From: a virus
Virus record (IMG/VR): IMGVR_UViG_3300042308_001471
Location: 1-25,981 of that record
DNA: 25,981 bases
Reading direction: 5' to 3' (one strand)
Shown: positions 2,448 through 23,729 of the stretch, in pieces
How positions within the stretch are numbered: the stretch's first letter is position 1
Layout: every line of letters starts with the position of its first letter
The notes under the pieces: generated by a model
The model's database searches: none
Told to the model about the DNA's origin: nothing
Seen by the model: the letters and a program-made list of their open reading frames with translations, nothing else
Program-made: the position numbers and the translations under genes

Positions 2448-5355
2448 TTACACGAACTTCTGAATAGTCAGATTGTTTTTTGTTAATGTCAGTAACTCTA
2501 ACAATTGGAGAAATGCCAGAAATGGCCGAAATTAATCGTTCTGTTGAATCATTTACTGTTGTAGGTAAACTTGTTCCACCAAAATTAATAACACCTGTTG
2601 CAAAGCGATTTCTTGTATTTAAGAATTCAAGCAATCCAGGATAATTAGATTGAGCAAAATTTGTTCCGCTGGCAGTAATAACAGATTCTCCTTTTGATAA
2701 TCTTGCCGGGATTGAATCGCTTGTTTCTGTTCCAGGACCATTTAAACCAATTACACCGGAAGCAAATCCTGGTGCCGCTGGCGGCTTTTGAGATTGAATA
2801 ACTGCAATTTGTGCAGCTGTAGTAGCTCCTACAATAATAGCTGCAATTGCTCCTGCAATTGGTCCAAGTTGAAATGATTGAATAATTCCTTGCGCGGCAC
2901 CAATTAAAGCTTGAGTTACTTGAAATGCTTTTTGAACTTCAAATTCCTTCTTTGCAATTTCATATCTTTCCTTTGCAGCTTTTTTATTTATATTATTAAT
3001 AGCTGTTTTCTTTTGTTCTTCATTTAAAGCTGAATTATTTACTGCTTCAATTTCAGCTTGCTCATTTTTATCTATTTCATTTTTTTGTGCTTCAAATCTG
3101 AGTGAAACAATTTCTTGAACTTTTGATAAAGCATCAGTAATAGCTTGAATTCCTTCTTGCGCTTCTTGAATTCCTTCTGGGCTCAATCCTAATGCAGCTC
3201 CAAATGTTGGTTCATCTGGCTTTACTTCACCTAATCCTTTTCTTGCAGCTGCTAAAGAATTTTTTATTGCATCAATACCTTGCTGTTCTACTTTAGTAGT
3301 TATTCCATCTGCTCCAACATATTTTTCTGTTAATGCTAATTGTTGCTCTAAAGCTTTAATTTGAATATCTAATTTTGCAGTTTGTTTTTCTGCTTCCGTT
3401 TGTGTACTTAAATCAACAGCATCTTGTTCTAATTTCAATTGCGCATTAATGAATGCAATTTGATTATTAAATTCTTCAGCTGCATAAGTTTCATTGATTT
3501 TTTTAATTTCTGCTATTTTCAATTTTTCTATTTCTGCAGCTGTAAATCCTTGCGCAATTAATGCAGCTTTGTTTTTGTTAAATGCATTTTCCTGAATTGC
3601 TAATCTATTAGATAACGAATCTTCTTCAATAGCTAATAATGCAGATTGAACGCTTAATTTATTGTCCAGAATAGTTTTATCAATGTCATCTTGTTTCTTT
3701 TTTGCATCTGCATCAAATTTATCTAATGCTGTTTTTTTATCTTCTGCAATTTCTTTTCTAAGTTTAACTTCTAAATCTCCATTTCCTTTTAATGAATCCG
3801 CTTTATCTTGAAAAGATTTAGCTAATTTTTCTCGTTCAGTTAAATTGAATTCTGTATCTAAAGATTTTAAATTTTCATTATATTTTTTTCTTGCTGCAAT
3901 TGCATCTTCTGCAGCTTTTTTATTTGCTTCTTTTATTTTATCATTTTTTTCAGTTTCAAGAGCAATATCTTTTGCAGCTGTTTCTGCTTTTGAATCCAGA
4001 ACTTTACCTTGTAAAGCTTGAATTTCTCTTGATAAATCAATTTGTTCTTTTGCGCTTACATTTGCCGCTTTAGCTAATGCTAATTGCGCTTGCAATTGAG
4101 CAATTAATTTATTAGTAGAATCTTCAAAACTTTTTGCTTTTTGTTTTTCCAAATCAATTGTGCTTTTTCCAGCTGCAGAAACTAATTTTATTTGTCTGTC
4201 ATAAGTAGCACTAACTGAAGCATTATATTGTTCGTAACTGTCCCTGGCACCAGCAATTGCAATTCCTTGTTTTTTGTATTCTTCAGATGCAATATTTGCA
4301 GCACGAGTTTGTTCGGAAGTTAATCCAAGAAAATCGGTAACTGAATTTTTAATGTCATCAAAATAAACTACTAATGCAACAATTCCTGCAATTAATGCAG
4401 CTACACCTAATGTTGCAATTGCCCATGCAGCTGCAGAAGCTACACCAAAAGCTGTAGTAATTGCTGTTAATAATGTTGTTCCACCAGAAACAATTGCATT
4501 TCCTGCAATAATTGCTTTTTGACCGGCTAAAGTTATTGTATCAATTACAGCTCCACGTTCTTTAACAACATTAGAAATATTTTGCCCAATCGCTAAAGCT
4601 TTTGTACTGGATGCAAGAGCATCAGTAACTACTTTATTTTCACCAAAAGCTAAAGTTACCAATTCAGAAGCAGATGCAGCTGCTCCAGCTGAAGCAATTG
4701 TATCTTCAAAACCTTTTTTAGCTCCAGAAGGTTTTTGTTCTGCTCCTAATTCTTTTAATTTACTTTCAACATCTGTAATTGCTAAACCTAAATTTTCCGC
4801 TTCATCTTTTGCTGCAGTAAAATCTATTGATGCCGGGTCAGTAGCTCCAATTGTTTTTTGTAATTCGTCTAATCTGGCACGCATTAGCTCCAGATTATTA
4901 CCATAATTTCCTACATTTTGTGTTCCAACAGAAATTCCTGCATTAAAATCTAAAATTGCTTTTTTTGCGTTATCAACTTGCTTTTTTGCATCAAAATAAA
5001 CTTTAGTTACTTGAACAGTACCATCTGCATTTTGCTGTAATGTTCCAGTTAGGTTTTTTAATTCAACTTCAGCTAATTGAAAGTTTCGCAATAGTTCTTC
5101 ATAACTTCCGGCATTAGCTAAAACAGCTTGCTTTTGAACTAATAATTGCCTTTCATTATTAGATATTTCTTTATTGAGAATTTTAATTTGTGTAGCTGTT
5201 TCAATATATGCAGCACTAACTTCTTTTTCAGAAGCAAATAAATCTTTGTTTTGTTTTTGTAAAGCTGCTACCTGGTTTTTTAAATCTGCAGTTTTTTTAA
5301 TTACTTCATCGGATTTAAATTGGATGTCTAATATTAAAGTTTGAGTTTCGGCCAT
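2434..5355 (-). CDS. Tape measure protein
   Basis: This is the longest gene here (973 aa). It is almost wholly helical: coiled coil at residues 15-100, long Lys/Glu/Ala-rich coiled coil at about 380-800, and hydrophobic segments at 290-332 and about 808-853. The C-terminal region has a PGFASGVIGLNGPGTETSD then IPARLSKGESVI pattern, which is characteristic of tape-measure C-termini in Bacteroidetes phages and prophages. The protein sets tail length and in long-tailed phages threads the tail lumen. By the usual rule of about 1.5 angstrom per residue, 973 residues would suit a tail near 140-150 nm, which is an extrapolation. It follows two large tail proteins with a 22-nt gap. No peptidase or lysozyme domain was noticed inside it. 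Confidence 0.93.
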   Translation of the reverse strand: MAETQTLILDIQFKSDEVIKKTADLKNQVAALQKQNKDLFASEKEVSAAYIETATQIKILNKEISNNERQLLVQKQAVLANAGSYEELLRNFQLAEVELKNLTGTLQQNADGTVQVTKVYFDAKKQVDNAKKAILDFNAGISVGTQNVGNYGNNLELMRARLDELQKTIGATDPASIDFTAAKDEAENLGLAITDVESKLKELGAEQKPSGAKKGFEDTIASAGAAASASELVTLAFGENKVVTDALASSTKALAIGQNISNVVKERGAVIDTITLAGQKAIIAGNAIVSGGTTLLTAITTAFGVASAAAWAIATLGVAALIAGIVALVVYFDDIKNSVTDFLGLTSEQTRAANIASEEYKKQGIAIAGARDSYEQYNASVSATYDRQIKLVSAAGKSTIDLEKQKAKSFEDSTNKLIAQLQAQLALAKAANVSAKEQIDLSREIQALQGKVLDSKAETAAKDIALETEKNDKIKEANKKAAEDAIAARKKYNENLKSLDTEFNLTEREKLAKSFQDKADSLKGNGDLEVKLRKEIAEDKKTALDKFDADAKKKQDDIDKTILDNKLSVQSALLAIEEDSLSNRLAIQENAFNKNKAALIAQGFTAAEIEKLKIAEIKKINETYAAEEFNNQIAFINAQLKLEQDAVDLSTQTEAEKQTAKLDIQIKALEQQLALTEKYVGADGITTKVEQQGIDAIKNSLAAARKGLGEVKPDEPTFGAALGLSPEGIQEAQEGIQAITDALSKVQEIVSLRFEAQKNEIDKNEQAEIEAVNNSALNEEQKKTAINNINKKAAKERYEIAKKEFEVQKAFQVTQALIGAAQGIIQSFQLGPIAGAIAAIIVGATTAAQIAVIQSQKPPAAPGFASGVIGLNGPGTETSDSIPARLSKGESVITASGTNFAQSNYPGLLEFLNTRNRFATGVINFGGTSLPTTVNDSTERLISAISGISPIVRVTDINKKQSDYSEVRVNGTI

Positions 5356-5377: not shown

Positions 5378-7390
5378 TTATCCAATTCGTAATAATTCAA
5401 CAGATGTACTTTCTGAAGAACTTGTAAAATCTTTTATTTGTTGAACGTAATAATATCCGGAAGGATTTTCCAGGTAAATTGGAATTGAAAAATCAAAATC
5501 CTGAATATCAAATTCACTTAAACGAAATTGCAATTCAACTTTTAAAATGTTATTTGTTAATCCTGTAAATAAGTTCTTGTAAAATGTTTCATATAAATAT
5601 TGCCATTCTAAATGAAATGTTTGAAAACTTTGAGATTCAAAACCCATAAAAGGAATGTTAGCATTTATGATTTGTATATTTTCATTAAATGCAATGTATT
5701 TAATTTGAGTATTTTTTCTAAATAGAAATGCTATTCTGGCCTTTCCGCTAAATTTCATCATATCACTATAATTCAAATTTGAACTAATTGAAACTGATGA
5801 ATCATAATTATCTAAAAAAATAGTATTAAAATCTTTCTGTTGAATCTGTTGCAATCTCGAATAGTTAAATTCAGATTTGATATAATCAACATCTAATGGT
5901 AAACTTTCATTAGTAATGCTAATTGAATAATCAAAAGTTGAATCTGGTAAATATCTAAAATTATTAACTTGACCATATCCATCAACTTTAAAAGTATAAA
6001 TTGGGTCAATAGCTAAATCAATTTTGCTTTGCCATTCTTTTGCAATTGATTTATTTTCATTTATTTCGTTAAATGTTACTAATCGAATTTGTTTATCATA
6101 TTCGTTTACAATTGGAATAATTCCAAATAAATTAGAAATCTCTTTTATAAATTTTGCGCATGTCCAATTAGGTAAATTCTCCTGAATATTAAATAAACGA
6201 TTGTAATGAGATTTAAACGCATTTGTAATTTTTGTTGAACTAAGTTTTAAATTTAATATTTCGAAATTAGTTTGCGTATTAGCAACATTTCCTTTGAACA
6301 CTTGTATTTCTGCATAAACTCCATTTATTTCAGCTGAAGTAATACTTGGATTGGGAGTATTTTGCATGAATGCATCATAAATAACATTTAATTTTAATTG
6401 TCCATTAAAAGCTCCTATTGTTGTGGATGAAATTTCTGTTTGTCCAAGTACCGTTAATGATTGATTTAAAGTTTGATAAACAATTAATCTAAAAGCTCCA
6501 TAAACTAATAAACCTGGTGCAGCTGGCTGCAAATCCGCTTGAAAATCAAAAGTAAATTCGTATTGTCCAGGAATTTGAAGATAATAACCATAAGTTAAAT
6601 TTGCAACATTCCATTTGTCAATAAATGCACTTCCATCTAACTTTTCTACAGATGTCCAATCTGTAAAAAAATTTAATGGTAACCATGTTTGACCTCCAGT
6701 TAAATCAACCGGAACATCCATTATTAATGAACATTGCAATTCTTCAATATTTCTGGTTCCGGTTTTACAACTTATTGCAGGAATTAATAAACTTTCAAAA
6801 TAACTTTCATTATAAATGCTTCCAGTAAAAGTATATCCAAAAGTTTCACCGATTTTCTGAAATAAGTATTTAACAAAAACAGATGGAACAATTCCAAATG
6901 TTTGTAATCTTGTTGTTACTTGAGATTGAACACCGGAATCATGCAAAGCATAAACATAACCATCTACATAAGTATTTGGAATTGAATTTATCATTTCATT
7001 CATGCACCATAAATGGTCCAATTCACTCATATCTAATTCACGCAAAAATGTTTGTTTAATTAAATCAAAAAATGTTGCGTTATCTGAATTAATTAATAAT
7101 TCAATTCTATCTCCTAAGCTTTCAAATGTAAATTGCGCTGCATTCATTATTTCAATTCCATTCGCCAAAACGGAACCGGATTGTTTAATATATTTTTTTG
7201 TTGAATCGTCGCTTCCCTGGACCATCCCAATAGCAGATAAATTATTTGCTGTTGCAGGTAAATTTAGTTTATTAGTAAAGCTGGATTGCCTTTCTAATGT
7301 TCCAATGTTAGCTATTCGCTTTGTTGTAGAAATAACTGTTCCTGAATCTAAATCTAATGCTGTATCTCCTATTTTAATATTTTGATTCAT
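5378..7390 (-). CDS. Large tail protein (Bacteroidetes phage type), unknown exact role
   Basis: This 670-aa protein starts at the ATG at 7390, overlapping the last base of the preceding 570-aa gene. The N-terminus (IGDTALDLDSGTVISTTKRI, then SSFTNKLNLPATANN) resembles a conserved N-terminus in Bacteroidetes phage tail proteins encoded beside the tape measure. The remainder is rich in aromatic and beta-prone residues, with no signal peptide or membrane segment, consistent with a virion component. It may belong to the tail-tip or baseplate hub, but no catalytic motif supports a finer call. The role is inferred from its place between another large beta-rich tail protein and the tape measure. A portal is unlikely: I see none of the helical stem or crown character expected. 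Confidence 0.72.
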   Translation of the reverse strand: MNQNIKIGDTALDLDSGTVISTTKRIANIGTLERQSSFTNKLNLPATANNLSAIGMVQGSDDSTKKYIKQSGSVLANGIEIMNAAQFTFESLGDRIELLINSDNATFFDLIKQTFLRELDMSELDHLWCMNEMINSIPNTYVDGYVYALHDSGVQSQVTTRLQTFGIVPSVFVKYLFQKIGETFGYTFTGSIYNESYFESLLIPAISCKTGTRNIEELQCSLIMDVPVDLTGGQTWLPLNFFTDWTSVEKLDGSAFIDKWNVANLTYGYYLQIPGQYEFTFDFQADLQPAAPGLLVYGAFRLIVYQTLNQSLTVLGQTEISSTTIGAFNGQLKLNVIYDAFMQNTPNPSITSAEINGVYAEIQVFKGNVANTQTNFEILNLKLSSTKITNAFKSHYNRLFNIQENLPNWTCAKFIKEISNLFGIIPIVNEYDKQIRLVTFNEINENKSIAKEWQSKIDLAIDPIYTFKVDGYGQVNNFRYLPDSTFDYSISITNESLPLDVDYIKSEFNYSRLQQIQQKDFNTIFLDNYDSSVSISSNLNYSDMMKFSGKARIAFLFRKNTQIKYIAFNENIQIINANIPFMGFESQSFQTFHLEWQYLYETFYKNLFTGLTNNILKVELQFRLSEFDIQDFDFSIPIYLENPSGYYYVQQIKDFTSSSESTSVELLRIG

Positions 7391-14001: not shown

Positions 14002-15402
14002 TTAAAATGGCATTTCTCTATCTACTTCGTAAAAGTTTTTGTTAGGCTGCAAATTAGTTTTTATTTCTTGAAATGTATTTGGATTTTCATTCATTCCATA
14101 AAAACTGCTCATTGTCGAATTATGTCGAAATCCAACAGAACCTGTTGCTCCTTGTCGATGCTTTTCAAAAAGAAGAAATATTTCATTTGTGTATGGTTCA
14201 CCGGTTTCTTCATTTTTTAGTTCATAATATTCTGGTCTCCAAATAAATGCAACGGTATCTGCATCTTGTTCAATTGAACCTGATTCACGCAAATTAGATA
14301 ACATTGGTTTTTTATCCGCTGTTTGTTCACATTGTCTATTCAATTGAGCTAAAACAATAAATGGAATGTTTAGTTCTTTTTGTGCAGCTTTCAATGTTCT
14401 GGATATCTGCGAAACTTCTGCTTCCCGGTTTCCACCTTTAAAGCCTTCTAATGTCATAAGCTGCAAATAATCTATTACTACCCAATTACATTGATTTAAT
14501 CGAACCTGCTTCTTAATAATGCGAATTGATTCGTTAACTCCACATCCAGCTTTATCATAAATCTTGAATGGTTTTTTTTCTACAATTCCAATTGTTTTTT
14601 CAAAGTGAATCAATTCATCCTGGTTTAGTGTTCCATCTCGCAAAGCAGATGAACGAATTCGTTCGTTTGCGTTTTGCAGGATTAAACGCTGTGTTAATTG
14701 AGATTGCGACATTTCAAGATTGAAATAGATTCCAGGTTTTCCAGTTTGCATTCCAAAAAATAAAGCTAATGCAGTTTTACCCATTGATGGACGAGCTCCA
14801 ATTATAATGAATTCGTTCTGGAATCCTCCAGTAAATTTATTGATTGCTTCTATGCCGGTATTTAATCCGCTTGTTTCACCAGATTTTGAAAGTTCAGCTC
14901 TACGATAATATGCTTCACGTTCATTTCCTGTTAGTTCTGGCATTTCAACTATTTTTTGCAGCTCAATTCCTTCTTGAGTTAAATTGGTTAAACGTTTAAT
15001 AATTTCTTCAGCAATATCTCTACCTGGTTTATTTTCATGTAATCCAATTCCAACTTCATAATATATTTTAGCTATAGAACGCGTTATAAATGCATTTTTA
15101 AGCGTTTCTAAGACTTCAGGGATATCTTCATTATAAGTTACATTTTGAGTGAAGGAAATCGCTTCTAAGTATTCCGGCATTAAAAATGAATCTGAAGTTT
15201 TCCATGCAGCTAATAATGTCATTGCTTCCGGCCTTTTATTTTCATCGCTTATTTTTTTTATAATTCGGAATGTTTTTTTGCAAAGCTCATGCTCAAAATG
15301 ATGGACATCAATTTGCATAATTATTTCCTTGTAAACATCTCCAGGAGATAACAAGATTCCGATTAATGTTTTTTCAATATGTTCGTTTGGATTATTATTC
15401 AT
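14002..15402 (-). CDS. dnaB: Replicative DNA helicase, DnaB family
   Basis: The 466-aa protein has an N-terminal DnaB helical domain (residues 1-105), a linker, and a RecA-like domain. Motifs: Walker A GARPSMGKTA (202-211), NLEMS (228-232), Walker B WVVIDYLQLM (307-316) with D311, AQLNRQ (352-357), the LRESGSIEQDAD segment (371-382), and the arginine finger R416 in KHRQGATG. This is a 5'-3' hexameric helicase for the phage fork. It overlaps the upstream replication gene by 8 nt, matching the initiator/helicase pairing of lambda-like replication modules. Length is typical of phage DnaB proteins and all key residues are present. Confidence 0.97.
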   Translation of the reverse strand: MNNNPNEHIEKTLIGILLSPGDVYKEIIMQIDVHHFEHELCKKTFRIIKKISDENKRPEAMTLLAAWKTSDSFLMPEYLEAISFTQNVTYNEDIPEVLETLKNAFITRSIAKIYYEVGIGLHENKPGRDIAEEIIKRLTNLTQEGIELQKIVEMPELTGNEREAYYRRAELSKSGETSGLNTGIEAINKFTGGFQNEFIIIGARPSMGKTALALFFGMQTGKPGIYFNLEMSQSQLTQRLILQNANERIRSSALRDGTLNQDELIHFEKTIGIVEKKPFKIYDKAGCGVNESIRIIKKQVRLNQCNWVVIDYLQLMTLEGFKGGNREAEVSQISRTLKAAQKELNIPFIVLAQLNRQCEQTADKKPMLSNLRESGSIEQDADTVAFIWRPEYYELKNEETGEPYTNEIFLLFEKHRQGATGSVGFRHNSTMSSFYGMNENPNTFQEIKTNLQPNKNFYEVDREMPF

Positions 15403-16042
15403 AATGCAGTTTTGATTTTGAAGGTTTTTTTGTTATGTATTTCCCTGCGTTTTTTGGGTCTGTTGCCATTTCATAAAGCTTGTTTTTGATTCCGAAACTT
15501 GAGAATTGATTAACACGAATTCCACCATTTTCATTTGGAGTAGTGTAATGATTAATAAAATCTTTAATTAATATTTCATTATATCCATTGAATGGATGTT
15601 CGTTTAAGAATTTTTGAACTTCTGAAATAAATTCTGCTTCATTGCATTTTTTAAACCATTTGCCCAAATCCAAATTTGGATTTACTAATTGATTTCTTTT
15701 TAAATCAATTTCATCTTTATCCTTATCTTCATCCTTATCCTTATCCTTATCCTTATAGGCTTGTACTTCGCTTACAATTCGCTTCGGTTTCGCTTTTAAT
15801 TCGCTTCCGTTTCGCTTCCGTTTGGCTTTACTTCCGTTTATGAAATTAGTGTTTCCTTTCTCTAAAACCGGCCTTATTAAACCAAAAAAAGCTTTGTTGA
15901 TTCCAGTTAATTCTGGTTCATTAAAGTTCAAAGAATATTCAAAAATCGCATTGTAAATTATTGCTTGGTTTTCTAAATCCAGCTCCTGCAATGATTCATA
16001 AATTGACCGGTAAAAAATGCATGTATCTCTATTTTCCATCAT
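15395..16042 (-). CDS. DUF6291-type replication initiator/organiser protein
   Basis: The first ATG pair is at 16042/16039, giving about 215 aa; a longer frame to 16063 uses TTG and is less likely. Residues 1-75 fit DUF6291 (IFYRSIYESLQELDLENQAI, then GLIRPVLEKGNTNF). Next come a Lys/Arg-rich linker, an acidic-basic KDKDKDKDEDKDKD run, and a C-terminal helical region (GKWFKKCNEAEFISEVQKFL, then IKDFINHY) resembling DnaD or initiator tails. Such proteins bind the origin and load DnaB, the next gene, which overlaps it by 8 nt. The linker-coding DNA contains a regular repeat array described separately; since its 11-bp period is out of step with codons, it is not an amino-acid repeat. Confidence 0.82.
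   Translation of the reverse strand: MMENRDTCIFYRSIYESLQELDLENQAIIYNAIFEYSLNFNEPELTGINKAFFGLIRPVLEKGNTNFINGSKAKRKRNGSELKAKPKRIVSEVQAYKDKDKDKDEDKDKDEIDLKRNQLVNPNLDLGKWFKKCNEAEFISEVQKFLNEHPFNGYNEILIKDFINHYTTPNENGGIRVNQFSSFGIKNKLYEMATDPKNAGKYITKKPSKSKLHYE
15711..15758. repeat. Hexanucleotide tandem repeat (TTATCC/GGATAA)
   Basis: Eight hexamers run from 15711 to 15758, mostly TTATCC with TCATCT, TTATCT, TCATCC and TTATAG variants. In frame it encodes the alternating Lys-Asp run of the initiator protein. It is a microsatellite prone to length change in steps of two residues. It abuts the 11-bp array and may serve as linker or unwinding spacer. Confidence 0.8.
15767..15828. repeat. Iteron-like array, TTCGCTT every 11 bp
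   Basis: TTCGCTT starts at 15767, 15778, 15789, 15800 and 15811, with a one-mismatch copy (TTGGCTT) at 15822. Spacing is exactly 11 bp each time, about one helical turn, so a bound protein would array on one DNA face. Because 11 is not a multiple of 3, the repeats fall in rotating codon phase and cannot be explained by protein repetition. Confidence 0.8.
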
Positions 16043-18330: not shown

Positions 18331-18702
18331 TTAATAGTTGAATTTAAATGTAAGTATTTTTGATGTCGAATCCTTGTTTTCATTAGCTCTTTTTACAGAT
18401 ATCAATCCATTTATAATTTGATATTTGAAAGCTTGAGCAACATCTGTAATTCGATATTTGAATCTCAATTCATTAACTTTTTCATCTGTTCGTTTTATCT
18501 CTTTTCCAATTCCGTAATGGTCTCGCAATTCGAATAAAAACAGCCTTGTATTTTTGTGAACTCTAAACATGCAATGTTCAAATGTTTTTACAAGTTCAAC
18601 TTGCTCAATTTGCTCTAATGGCAAAACTGTTTGATAATTTACAACTTCTTCCGGCCGGAAGGTAATCTGGATTTCTCCATTAGGTAATTTTTGAATTTTC
18701 AT
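18331..18702 (-). CDS. Hypothetical protein upstream of recT
   Basis: The 123-aa protein begins MKIQKLPNGEIQITFRPEEV at the ATG at 18702. It alternates beta-prone and basic helical segments (MFRVHKNTRLFLFELRDHYG, then RITDVAQAFKYQIINGL). No known motif is recognised and no membrane segment seen. It is encoded between a membrane-anchored protein and RecT, separated from RecT by 19 nt. The fold may be a small DNA- or RNA-associated domain, given its basic surface stretches, but that is speculative. Confidence 0.65.
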   Translation of the reverse strand: MKIQKLPNGEIQITFRPEEVVNYQTVLPLEQIEQVELVKTFEHCMFRVHKNTRLFLFELRDHYGIGKEIKRTDEKVNELRFKYRITDVAQAFKYQIINGLISVKRANENKDSTSKILTFKFNY

Positions 18703-18721: not shown

Positions 18722-19138
18722 TTAGTTAAAATGTTTAATTAAGATTGGTTCAAAGGATTTGGTAATTTCAATGTTGACTGAATTGAATGCATGAACAAAA
18801 TTTGCTTCTGTTGTTTTTTCGTAACTTCTAAATAATTCTAATCTGCATTCATTGAAGTAATCTTTAATGATGCGTTCAGCATTCATTGAGCTGCTTTCAC
18901 GAACGTTAATTCCATATCTGTTCATTATATTGATTACTTCAATAAACTGCTTTGTAATAGGATTAAATGCATAATAGTTTAATTCGCTGGAATTGGATTT
19001 AAAGTAAATCCATTCTTTAAACTTATTTGCTTTGTCGCATTCAGTTTTTAATTCCGCTTTTCTGTTCTTGGACCTGGCTGTTAAAATGCCGCCAAAAATT
19101 AATAATGCTGTTCCGGTTAAAACGAATAATGATTTCAT
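18722..19138 (-). CDS. Membrane-anchored hypothetical protein
   Basis: Start chosen at the ATG at 19138 (138 aa), because the longer frame begins with TTG at 19174 and the AAATCCCTA leader precedes 19138. Residues 3-20 (SLFVLTGTALLIFGGILT) form a single N-terminal membrane segment, followed by basic ARSKNRK, so the rest probably lies in the cytoplasm, or outside if the segment is a signal. The soluble part is helical and charged (NAERIIKDYFNECRLELF). It is an early-operon gene, and an envelope-directed early role such as superinfection control is conceivable, but nothing in the sequence proves it. Confidence 0.65.
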   Translation of the reverse strand: MKSLFVLTGTALLIFGGILTARSKNRKAELKTECDKANKFKEWIYFKSNSSELNYYAFNPITKQFIEVINIMNRYGINVRESSSMNAERIIKDYFNECRLELFRSYEKTTEANFVHAFNSVNIEITKSFEPILIKHFN

Positions 19139-22292: not shown

Positions 22293-22964
22293 TTATTTTG
22301 CTGAAGCAATACCAAAACCTAAAAATGCTCCAAAAATGACTTTAAATCCTGTTGTTTGGAACCATTTTTTGCGCTCTTTAATATAAATATTGCTCATTCC
22401 CTGGAGCTGGATGTTTGGATTGTCAATATGTAAACGAACTACCAAATCCGATTTATTCAGGATTCTATTTATAAGGCCTTTTCTAATCGTATCTCCTAAT
22501 GAATAAGTAAATTGTCCATTACTTACTAATGAATCAATTAAAAGCGTTCCAGATGCGTTTATTTGACCATCTATTGAAAACCATCTTTCAGATTTTGAAA
22601 ATATAACAGGAACCCGTAAATAATTTAATGAATCAATTTGTTCAGTTTCTGCAATTGGTATTTCAGTTTTTATAATGTACCTGGTTTTGAATTGAACTAT
22701 CTCTTTTGGCTTTTTGATTTTCATTACTCTTAAAGCAAAAATTTCTTGTTCGTTTTTTTTAAGCTCTAAATCTTTGATTTTTATATTTTGATTCTGTGTA
22801 TAAATAAAACTCGAATCCAGTAACCGGGAAGTTTTAAAATTTTCAATTTCAGAATCCTGTTTTTTGAGCTCTAAAATATATTCACGATTTAAACTGCAGC
22901 TCCTGAACAAAAGAAGAATTAATATAATGCATGCAATCAAAATAAAATTTATTCCTTTATACAT
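22293..22964 (-). CDS. DUF6549/spanin-like membrane coiled-coil protein
   Basis: The 223-aa protein has one N-terminal membrane segment (6-20, NFILIACIILILLLF), RSC just after it, a coiled coil (about 28-78), a beta-rich domain and a hydrophobic end (FKVIFGAFLGFGIAS, 207-221). The second half (SERWFSIDGQINASGTLLID, LHIDNPNIQLQGMSNIYI, then KERKKWF) matches, from memory, the pattern of Bacteroidetes DUF6549 proteins near phage lysis genes. An inner-membrane anchor plus periplasmic coiled coil is the architecture of an i-spanin, so a role in outer-membrane disruption is proposed but unproven. It starts at the ATG at 22964, 8 nt inside the preceding gene. Confidence 0.7.
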   Translation of the reverse strand: MYKGINFILIACIILILLLFRSCSLNREYILELKKQDSEIENFKTSRLLDSSFIYTQNQNIKIKDLELKKNEQEIFALRVMKIKKPKEIVQFKTRYIIKTEIPIAETEQIDSLNYLRVPVIFSKSERWFSIDGQINASGTLLIDSLVSNGQFTYSLGDTIRKGLINRILNKSDLVVRLHIDNPNIQLQGMSNIYIKERKKWFQTTGFKVIFGAFLGFGIASAK

Positions 22965-23159: not shown

Positions 23160-23729
23160 TCAAATTTGCCTTGTTGCTTTTTTTACTAATGTATGAATTG
23201 ATTTATCTAATTGCTCAACAGATAAATTTACCATTTCAAGCAATTTAATATTATCTTCTTCACTATTTGAAAAATCTTTTTCAATAAGCATTTTAACTAA
23301 TCCTGCAATACTGGTTAAAGGCTGTCGCAATTCATGAGAAAGCATAAATCTAAAATCTTCTAATAACTGCTTTTGCTTTTCATATTCATGAGATGTTATT
23401 GATGTAACATCTGTAATTGGTAATCCAACAAAATGAATTGAATTTAGAATAAAATAAATATTCCATAAATTCCATCTTAATGAACCATTTTTTTGTTTTG
23501 TTTTTGCATAAAAGCGAATCGGTAATGGAGCTCTTTCTTTTGCCCGTTTTACTGAATCTGAAAATTCATCAAAATCTGAATTATCTGAAATGATTTCAGA
23601 AACATTTTTTGGTTTAATATGGCTGGTATATTCTTTAAACAAATCATTGCTTCCAATAATAACTCCAGATTCATCAGTTACTAAATAAAACAAATCAATT
23701 GAATTGGTTAAAATATATCTTGCGCTCAT
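23160..23729 (-). CDS. PAS-HisKA protein lacking an ATPase domain
   Basis: The 189-aa protein has an N-terminal PAS-like domain (1-110: IDLFYLVTDESGVIIGSN, RFYAKTKQKNGSLRWNLWNI, then VGLPITDVTSIT) joined by a short helix to a histidine-kinase dimerisation domain. The H-box is FRFMLSHELRQPLTSIAGLV (127-146), with phospho-acceptor H132, E133 and P137. A second helix of the dimer follows (EDNIKLLEMVNLSVEQLDKS). The protein ends there: no N, G1 or G2 boxes of HATPase_c occur in it or in the next gene. It has no signal or membrane segment. It could be a phosphotransfer protein, a dominant-negative partner of host kinases, or a signal-sensing switch in the lysis region. Domain calls are strong, function is open. 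Confidence 0.85.
   Translation of the reverse strand: MSARYILTNSIDLFYLVTDESGVIIGSNDLFKEYTSHIKPKNVSEIISDNSDFDEFSDSVKRAKERAPLPIRFYAKTKQKNGSLRWNLWNIYFILNSIHFVGLPITDVTSITSHEYEKQKQLLEDFRFMLSHELRQPLTSIAGLVKMLIEKDFSNSEEDNIKLLEMVNLSVEQLDKSIHTLVKKATRQI

Follow-up and report, generated by a model that had tools for sequence, protein, structure and literature searches.

An 11-bp-phased iteron array inside the DUF6291 gene of a phage: a probable replication origin in a predicted initiator gene

The DUF6291 locus

Why should a phage gene carry a 7-bp motif repeated every 11 bp through its coding sequence, and does the array serve the protein or the DNA, possibly as an origin of replication? The question is raised by the stretch of DNA analysed here (the window, 25,981 nucleotides), a 26-kb phage fragment with 30% GC in which the minus strand carries all the family-tested predicted phage genes. 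The array lies in the gene for a predicted replication initiator of 214 aa (15395–16039, minus strand, start ATG at 16037–16039), whose product shares the start MENRDT with its relatives and passes the Pfam threshold for DUF6291 (PF19808, E = 5.6e-13, 49.3 bits against a gathering cut-off of 27.2). A DnaB-type replicative helicase (PF03796, E = 1.6e-72; PHROG 19) is encoded directly downstream (14002–15402, minus strand), and the two genes overlap where the DUF6291 gene ends. Upstream lie RecT, exonuclease and SSB-like genes, and downstream the terminase genes, 3–4 kb away, and together with dnaB these neighbours identify the locus as a replication module. The same DUF6291–dnaB pair, with an AACCCCA array, is present on a 51-kb circular element of Bacteroides finegoldii (NZ_OY725926). 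Downstream sequence was long enough at 152 DUF6291 loci; 70 of them have a DnaB-like ORF there, and half of the others have an ORF with a Walker A motif nearby. No description of DUF6291 was found in the literature searched, most subscription journals lying outside that search; a function and a candidate binding site are proposed here for a family listed as unknown.

The iteron array and its constraint

The initial annotation had reported six TTCGCTT-type repeats with an exact 11-bp period, and these were found as described, with five exact copies at 15767, 15778, 15789, 15800 and 15811 and a one-mismatch copy, TTGGCTT, at 15822. A unit with two mismatches, TAGGCTT at 15756, lengthens the array at its low-coordinate end, giving an iteron array at 15756–15828 (minus strand) with AAGCGAA cores (TTCGCTT on the plus strand) every 11 bp. 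On the coding strand it reads AAGCCAAACGG AAGCGAAACGG AAGCGAATTAA AAGCGAAACCG AAGCGAATTGT AAGCGAAGTAC AAGCC, followed by TATAAGGATAAGGATAAGGATAAGG. The period had been equated with one DNA turn; the 11-bp spacing stands, but at 11.0 bp it slightly exceeds the turn of B-DNA. Outside the array, TTCGCTT occurs in the window only singly, at 7315 and 21630, and AAGCGAA at 23512. A 3-core pattern with up to 3 mismatches gave six overlapping matches in the window, all of them in the array, and none in 100 dinucleotide shuffles. These are iteron-type direct repeats, more than the three that define such a set, regularly spaced and kept among the relatives.

The constraint was found to lie on the DNA. 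The 11-bp periodicity score of 27 was not reached once in two sets of 10,000 trials that left the protein unchanged, one of synonymous codon shuffles within the gene and one of recodings that followed the codon usage of the phage. Because three does not divide 11, successive cores are read in different codon frames, and over the 122 distinct arrays found in the family the three codon phases hold 299, 282 and 272 cores, an even spread. When the window phage is compared with its three closest relatives, the third codon position is conserved at 14 of 16 sites in the cores, 3 of 8 in the spacers and 19 of 60 in the N-domain; for first and second positions the counts are 25 of 31, 3 of 16 and 112 of 120, respectively. 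Conservation therefore follows the DNA core in the linker and the protein in the N-domain. The earlier proposal that DNA and not protein is constrained is thus borne out, and it is practically certain that the array is a real, DNA-constrained element. The DUF6291 gene carries two messages at once: one is a linker peptide that tolerates change, the other a phased site in the DNA.

Conservation across the family

Absence of the spaced repeats from related phages had been set beforehand as the check on the proposal, and the array was found to be kept in them while the amino acids vary. Two protein-similarity searches of viral contigs and bacterial genomes yielded 166 usable DUF6291 genes, chosen without regard to repeats. 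The best non-codon period of the region after the domain was 11 bp in 125 genes and 22 bp in 32, that is, in 157 of the 166. An 11-bp score of at least 15 was reached by 154 of the 166 DUF6291 genes vs 3 of 653 ORFs neighbouring them at these loci. Over the 122 distinct arrays, the unit consists of an AASCNAA core and a free 4-bp spacer, with within-array constancies of 0.91–0.98 for core columns 1, 2, 4, 6 and 7 and of 0.55–0.67 for the spacers. The core occurs in several dialects (AAGCGAA, AAGCAAA, AACCAAA and AACCCCA, with AACAACC in L061 and L062), and array length ranges from about 4 to 29 units across the survey. The array usually lies inside the gene, 200–300 bp past the start, and is adjoined by an A/T-rich repeat tract. 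Five chromosomal DUF6291 genes (L212, L213, L215, L217 and L218) have neither arrays nor the 6-bp tract, so the domain can exist without the array, and the joint absence is consistent with a loss of origin function. An AASCNAA core recurring at 11-bp steps within the linker of an initiator is a simple signature that may be used for locating origins in many phages and prophages, its reach covering those of Bacteroidota, Clostridia and Campylobacterota.

Two further observations concern single loci of the survey. Very long linker arrays, of up to about 29 units and apparently of recent amplification, are found in two genes (L287 and L292, loci 3001–4000). Two DUF6291 genes (L101 and L102), each with its own array, lie on a single 62-kb contig (G018) at a distance of about 38 kb from one another, which may reflect two replicons or a misjoined or nested element.

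Flanking elements

A hexamer repeat, an inverted repeat and a perfect palindrome had also been placed next to the array. All three are present, although the palindrome is not part of a conserved element. The 6-bp repeat tract (15713–15756, minus strand), which was found by TRF, adjoins the array, is A/T- and purine-rich, reads ATAAGG on the coding strand and encodes the peptide KDKDKD. The hexamer repeat is kept in the three closest relatives, and most DUF6291 members have a dipeptide tract after the array (KDKD, NKNK, NVNV). The Lys codons of these dipeptide tracts are biased toward AAG (166:45), compared with 437:677 elsewhere in the same genes and 66:353 in the other genes of the window, and because of this bias the tract also seems to be constrained as DNA. 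A similar tail (ATAAGATAAGATAAG) follows non-coding arrays. The tract is the best candidate for an unwinding element or a helicase landing or entry site.

The inverted repeat AATTGATTT-N6-AAATCAATT (15687–15710) has arms at 15687–15695 and 15702–15710, which are kept, with a variable loop, in the three closest relatives (L002, L003 and L004). The perfect 18-bp palindrome AAATCCAAATTTGGATTT (15666–15683) sits in a 15-bp insertion of the window phage that is absent from these relatives. It is probably incidental, to judge from this comparison, and was rejected as a part of the origin.

Domains of the protein and their exchange

AlphaFold2, run with 111 relatives, predicted an N-terminal domain of three helices and no strands (residues 1–70, 15830–16039, minus strand; pLDDT about 91–98), a disordered stretch from about residue 71 to 125, which corresponds to the iterons and hexamers in the DNA, and a helical C-terminal domain (residues 126–214, 15398–15664, minus strand) with helices at 134–193. 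The N-domain is proposed as the iteron-binding domain and the C-domain as the helicase or primosome contact. No convincing PDB relative of the protein was obtained by sequence or by fold, which is no proof of a new fold; as the N-domain fold lacks a clear PDB relative, the proposed DNA binding is without support from the fold. Among viral models, the best matches were to other DUF6291 proteins; next came proteins carrying the annotation replisome organizer or DnaD.

The two Riemerella phages GRNRAP2 and CRP19 are about 95–100% identical across the region except for a block of about 450 bp, which spans the 5′ region, the N-domain and the repeats and falls to an identity of 0.38–0.52 at its centre. 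The 11-bp AACCNAA repeats of GRNRAP2 are replaced in CRP19 by a short set of ATAGCAA repeats spaced by 10 bp, whereas the hexamer tract, the C-domain and the next gene are common to both. Since the phages differ only in that block, the N-domain and the repeats travel together. A comparable exchange is known for the pPR9/pSK41 Rep proteins, where the exchanged segment of about 500 bp comprises the DNA-binding domain and the origin (PMC5703833). Core type tracks the N-domain even where the C-domains are unrelated, a descriptive result in which, for N-domains at least 80% identical, the third core base is kept in 97% of pairs, the pairs being non-independent. The C-domain is exchanged independently of the N-domain and iteron core. 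An iteron origin calls for a cognate initiator, and DUF6291 would be one: its gene stands at the locus of the array, and by sequence comparison it varies along with the repeat. The Riemerella exchange suggests that replicon specificity can change while the helicase interface remains unchanged.

Non-coding arrays and other initiator families

Arrays also occur outside coding sequence. One DUF6291 gene (L029) has, besides its linker array, a five-unit non-coding array immediately upstream of the start. In two contigs (G007 and G010), a Lin1244-like initiator gene holds one array, and a second, non-coding one stands among late genes at a distance of 13.5 kb; its core is that of the coding array, and its ATAAGA tail is similar. 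A scan of viral contigs for AAGCGAA gave 110 stretches at 11-bp spacing vs 7 at the control spacing of 14 bp, which has the same frame behaviour. DUF6291 accounted for 61 of the 84 distinct ORFs holding an AAGCGAA 11-bp array, and the others included DUF1376 (5), Lin1244_N (2), DUF7833 (2), Phage_rep_org_N and DnaT; the arrays outside DUF6291 sit in the linker of similarly built proteins. An unselected sample of DUF1376 genes was heterogeneous, with arrays of 11 or 22 bp and other cores in some genes and none in others, and Bacteroidota Lin1244_N genes carry 5/10-bp repeats. The genome search by Pfam for PF09681 returned matches that were too few or off-family. The 11-bp array was found by the scan to be absent from E. 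coli ydaU, TP901-1 rep and lambda O.

It is on balance slightly favoured that these observations reflect a general arrangement in DUF6291, DUF1376, Lin1244_N and Phage_rep_org_N-like initiators. The origin would consist of short cores phased at 10–11 bp, about one helical turn, and written through the disordered linker in all three frames, the N-domain and iterons would form a swappable cassette that resets replicon specificity, and the 6-bp tract and C-domain would stay with the host machinery.

Several arrays and repeats were noted at individual loci. The linker repeats of three Lin1244_N genes (L297, L302 and L304), with 5/10-bp units (ATAGC, AAAGT), are out of codon register, suggesting that the Lin1244_N repeats may be another phased iteron dialect. 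In the Rac prophage of E. coli, the DUF1376 gene ydaU (L182, 6120–6977) has repeated TGTTCAAAC sites in its linker and adjoins ydaV, a putative ATP-binding protein gene, so that these sites are a candidate Rac origin. Two contigs without DUF6291 hold non-coding arrays: in L150 (G017, 1267–1394), more than 15 units (AAGCGAACTTT/AAGCAAACCTT) stand between an HTH gene and an integrase-like gene, and in L121 (G014, 22707–22790), an AAGCGAA 11-bp array is followed by a strongly A/T-rich stretch (ATATAAAATATAAAAATATAAAATATATTAATAG).

The origin reading and its alternatives

The DNA-level constraint, the conservation across the family, the joint exchange, the non-coding copies and the linkage to dnaB all point to an origin, and the array is most probably an iteron origin to which the DUF6291 N-domain binds, while the C-domain recruits the helicase. 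The array would be the initiator-binding part of a theta origin, written through the disordered linker of the initiator gene. The N-domain would bind the AASCNAA cores, which the 11-bp spacing would place on nearly one face of the helix, and the bound N-domains may assemble a filament or cluster on the array. This assembly would open the adjoining A/T-rich 6-bp-repeat tract, and the C-domain would recruit the DnaB-type helicase whose gene lies alongside. In this scheme, binding of the array by the protein, opening of the tract, loading of the helicase and activity as an origin are inferred.

GC skew had been suggested as a check on the location of the origin, and the outcome was mixed. In the Nitratiruptor phage NrS-2, whose array lies at about 18,895–18,980 of LC545443, agreement was exact, cumulative GC skew reaching its minimum within the array, and rough agreement was obtained for G001, G002, G005, G006 and the window, the last being partial and its skew non-significant. 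In GRNRAP2, G004 and G010, however, the skew fails to mark the array after gene-strand correction. As an origin test GC skew is only weakly helpful, being too noisy to be decisive and confounded by gene orientation.

The array could have an operator role besides or instead of the origin role. That it is an operator only, either the autorepression site of the initiator-helicase operon or a roadblock, with the origin elsewhere, is considered unlikely. Iteron initiators often regulate their own genes, and the second array of L029 directly precedes the start codon, the position expected of an autoregulatory operator; nevertheless, the usual array is placed well inside the gene beside an A/T-rich repeat tract, the non-coding copies of G007 and G010 are far from the initiator gene and among late genes, and the linkage of C-domain and helicase points to replication. 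Another cis-acting phage site, for packaging, recombination, partition or incompatibility and bound by DUF6291 or another protein, is a distinctly poor candidate. Partition sites are also arrays of direct repeats, and the terminase genes of the window are 3–4 kb from the array, but the array goes with the initiator N-domain, and where it turns up again it is in linkers from other initiator-like families, not in terminase or partition genes.

Two further readings were rejected on the synonymous nulls, the codon phases and the contrast between core and spacer, and almost no credence is given to either. An 11-aa linker repeat, KRxxSExxAKx, might be selected for charge or flexibility, with the 11-bp DNA period as a by-product, a 33-bp (11-aa) repeat resulting automatically from an 11-bp DNA repeat and basic linkers being common in DNA-binding proteins; however, an 11-aa repeat gives no 11-bp sub-period, the core third positions are conserved as the spacer-coded residues vary freely, the linker is modelled as disordered and non-coding copies exist. 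Neutral slippage or tandem duplication of the 11-bp unit would agree with the variable array length (about 4 to 29 units) and with the recently amplified appearance of L287 and L292, but whole units would then be copied, whereas spacers differ and cores agree, and nearly all family members retain the array, which is rare in other ORFs.

Comparison with known origins

The initial annotation had described a lambda-style origin in an initiator gene. An origin at this place remains the best explanation, but the likeness to lambda is supported only as an analogy. As in lambda O and ori-lambda, the initiator gene itself holds the iterons, and these fall in the linker that joins the N-domain, origin-binding in lambda O and proposed to be so in DUF6291, to a C-domain, which in lambda O contacts the helicase loader; an A/T-rich region adjoins the iterons, and a helicase-related gene is found directly downstream of the initiator. 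The annotated lambda iterons are, however, four 18-bp sites about 20–24 bp apart, in contrast to the 7-bp cores in 11-bp repeats of DUF6291, a DnaB-type helicase follows DUF6291 where lambda has a P-type loader, and second, non-coding array copies exist in some DUF6291-type contigs. Searches of the window protein against Pfam, PHROGs and NCBIfam for homology to lambda O gave only DUF6291, PHROGs of unknown function and one sub-threshold unrelated NCBIfam match. In the lactococcal phage TP901-1, Rep is annotated as experimentally shown to act in phage replication and repeats in rep are needed in cis; its rep differs from DUF6291 in the lack of an 11-bp array.

SPP1 has one origin, oriL, in gene 38 and another, oriR, at a distance of about 13 kb (PMC6316719). 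Direct repeats in the initiator gene and a second, non-coding origin about 13 kb off recall G007 and G010, although in the present material second arrays are known from contigs with a Lin1244-like initiator and from L029, and not from the window. No sequence relationship between SPP1 gp38 and DUF6291 was detected, and the likeness is one of layout. A parallel to the exchange is offered by the RepA_N plasmid initiators (pSK41 Rep and the pPR9 chimera), with central repeats, a linker and a swappable N-domain and origin. In pSK41 Rep, the N-domain binds Rep boxes in the middle of rep, where the encoded segment serves as a linker and can be dispensed with; contact with the primosome is made through the C-domain, and the N-domain and origin are exchanged as a unit (PMC5703833). 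The RepA_N domain (PF06970) gave no Pfam match in the window DUF6291 protein at E 0.1, and the RepA_N N-domain is a winged helix, that of DUF6291 being modelled as three helices without strands, for which fold searches gave no significant match; nor has 11-bp phasing been described for RepA_N origins. By analogy, the proposed DUF6291 origin most likely works like those of lambda O, SPP1 gp38 and RepA_N, while its sequence matches none of them.

Other features of the window

Searches for RNA families and tRNAs found none in the window. An ORF at 23160–23729 (minus strand) resembles, from a reading of its translation only, a PAS domain with a histidine-kinase H-box (MLSHELRQPLTSI) and without an ATPase domain, which is unusual for a phage. 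A perfect 14-bp palindrome, CTTCCGGCCGGAAG, is located inside an ORF at 18648–18661 and is GC-rich compared with the 30% GC of the genome.
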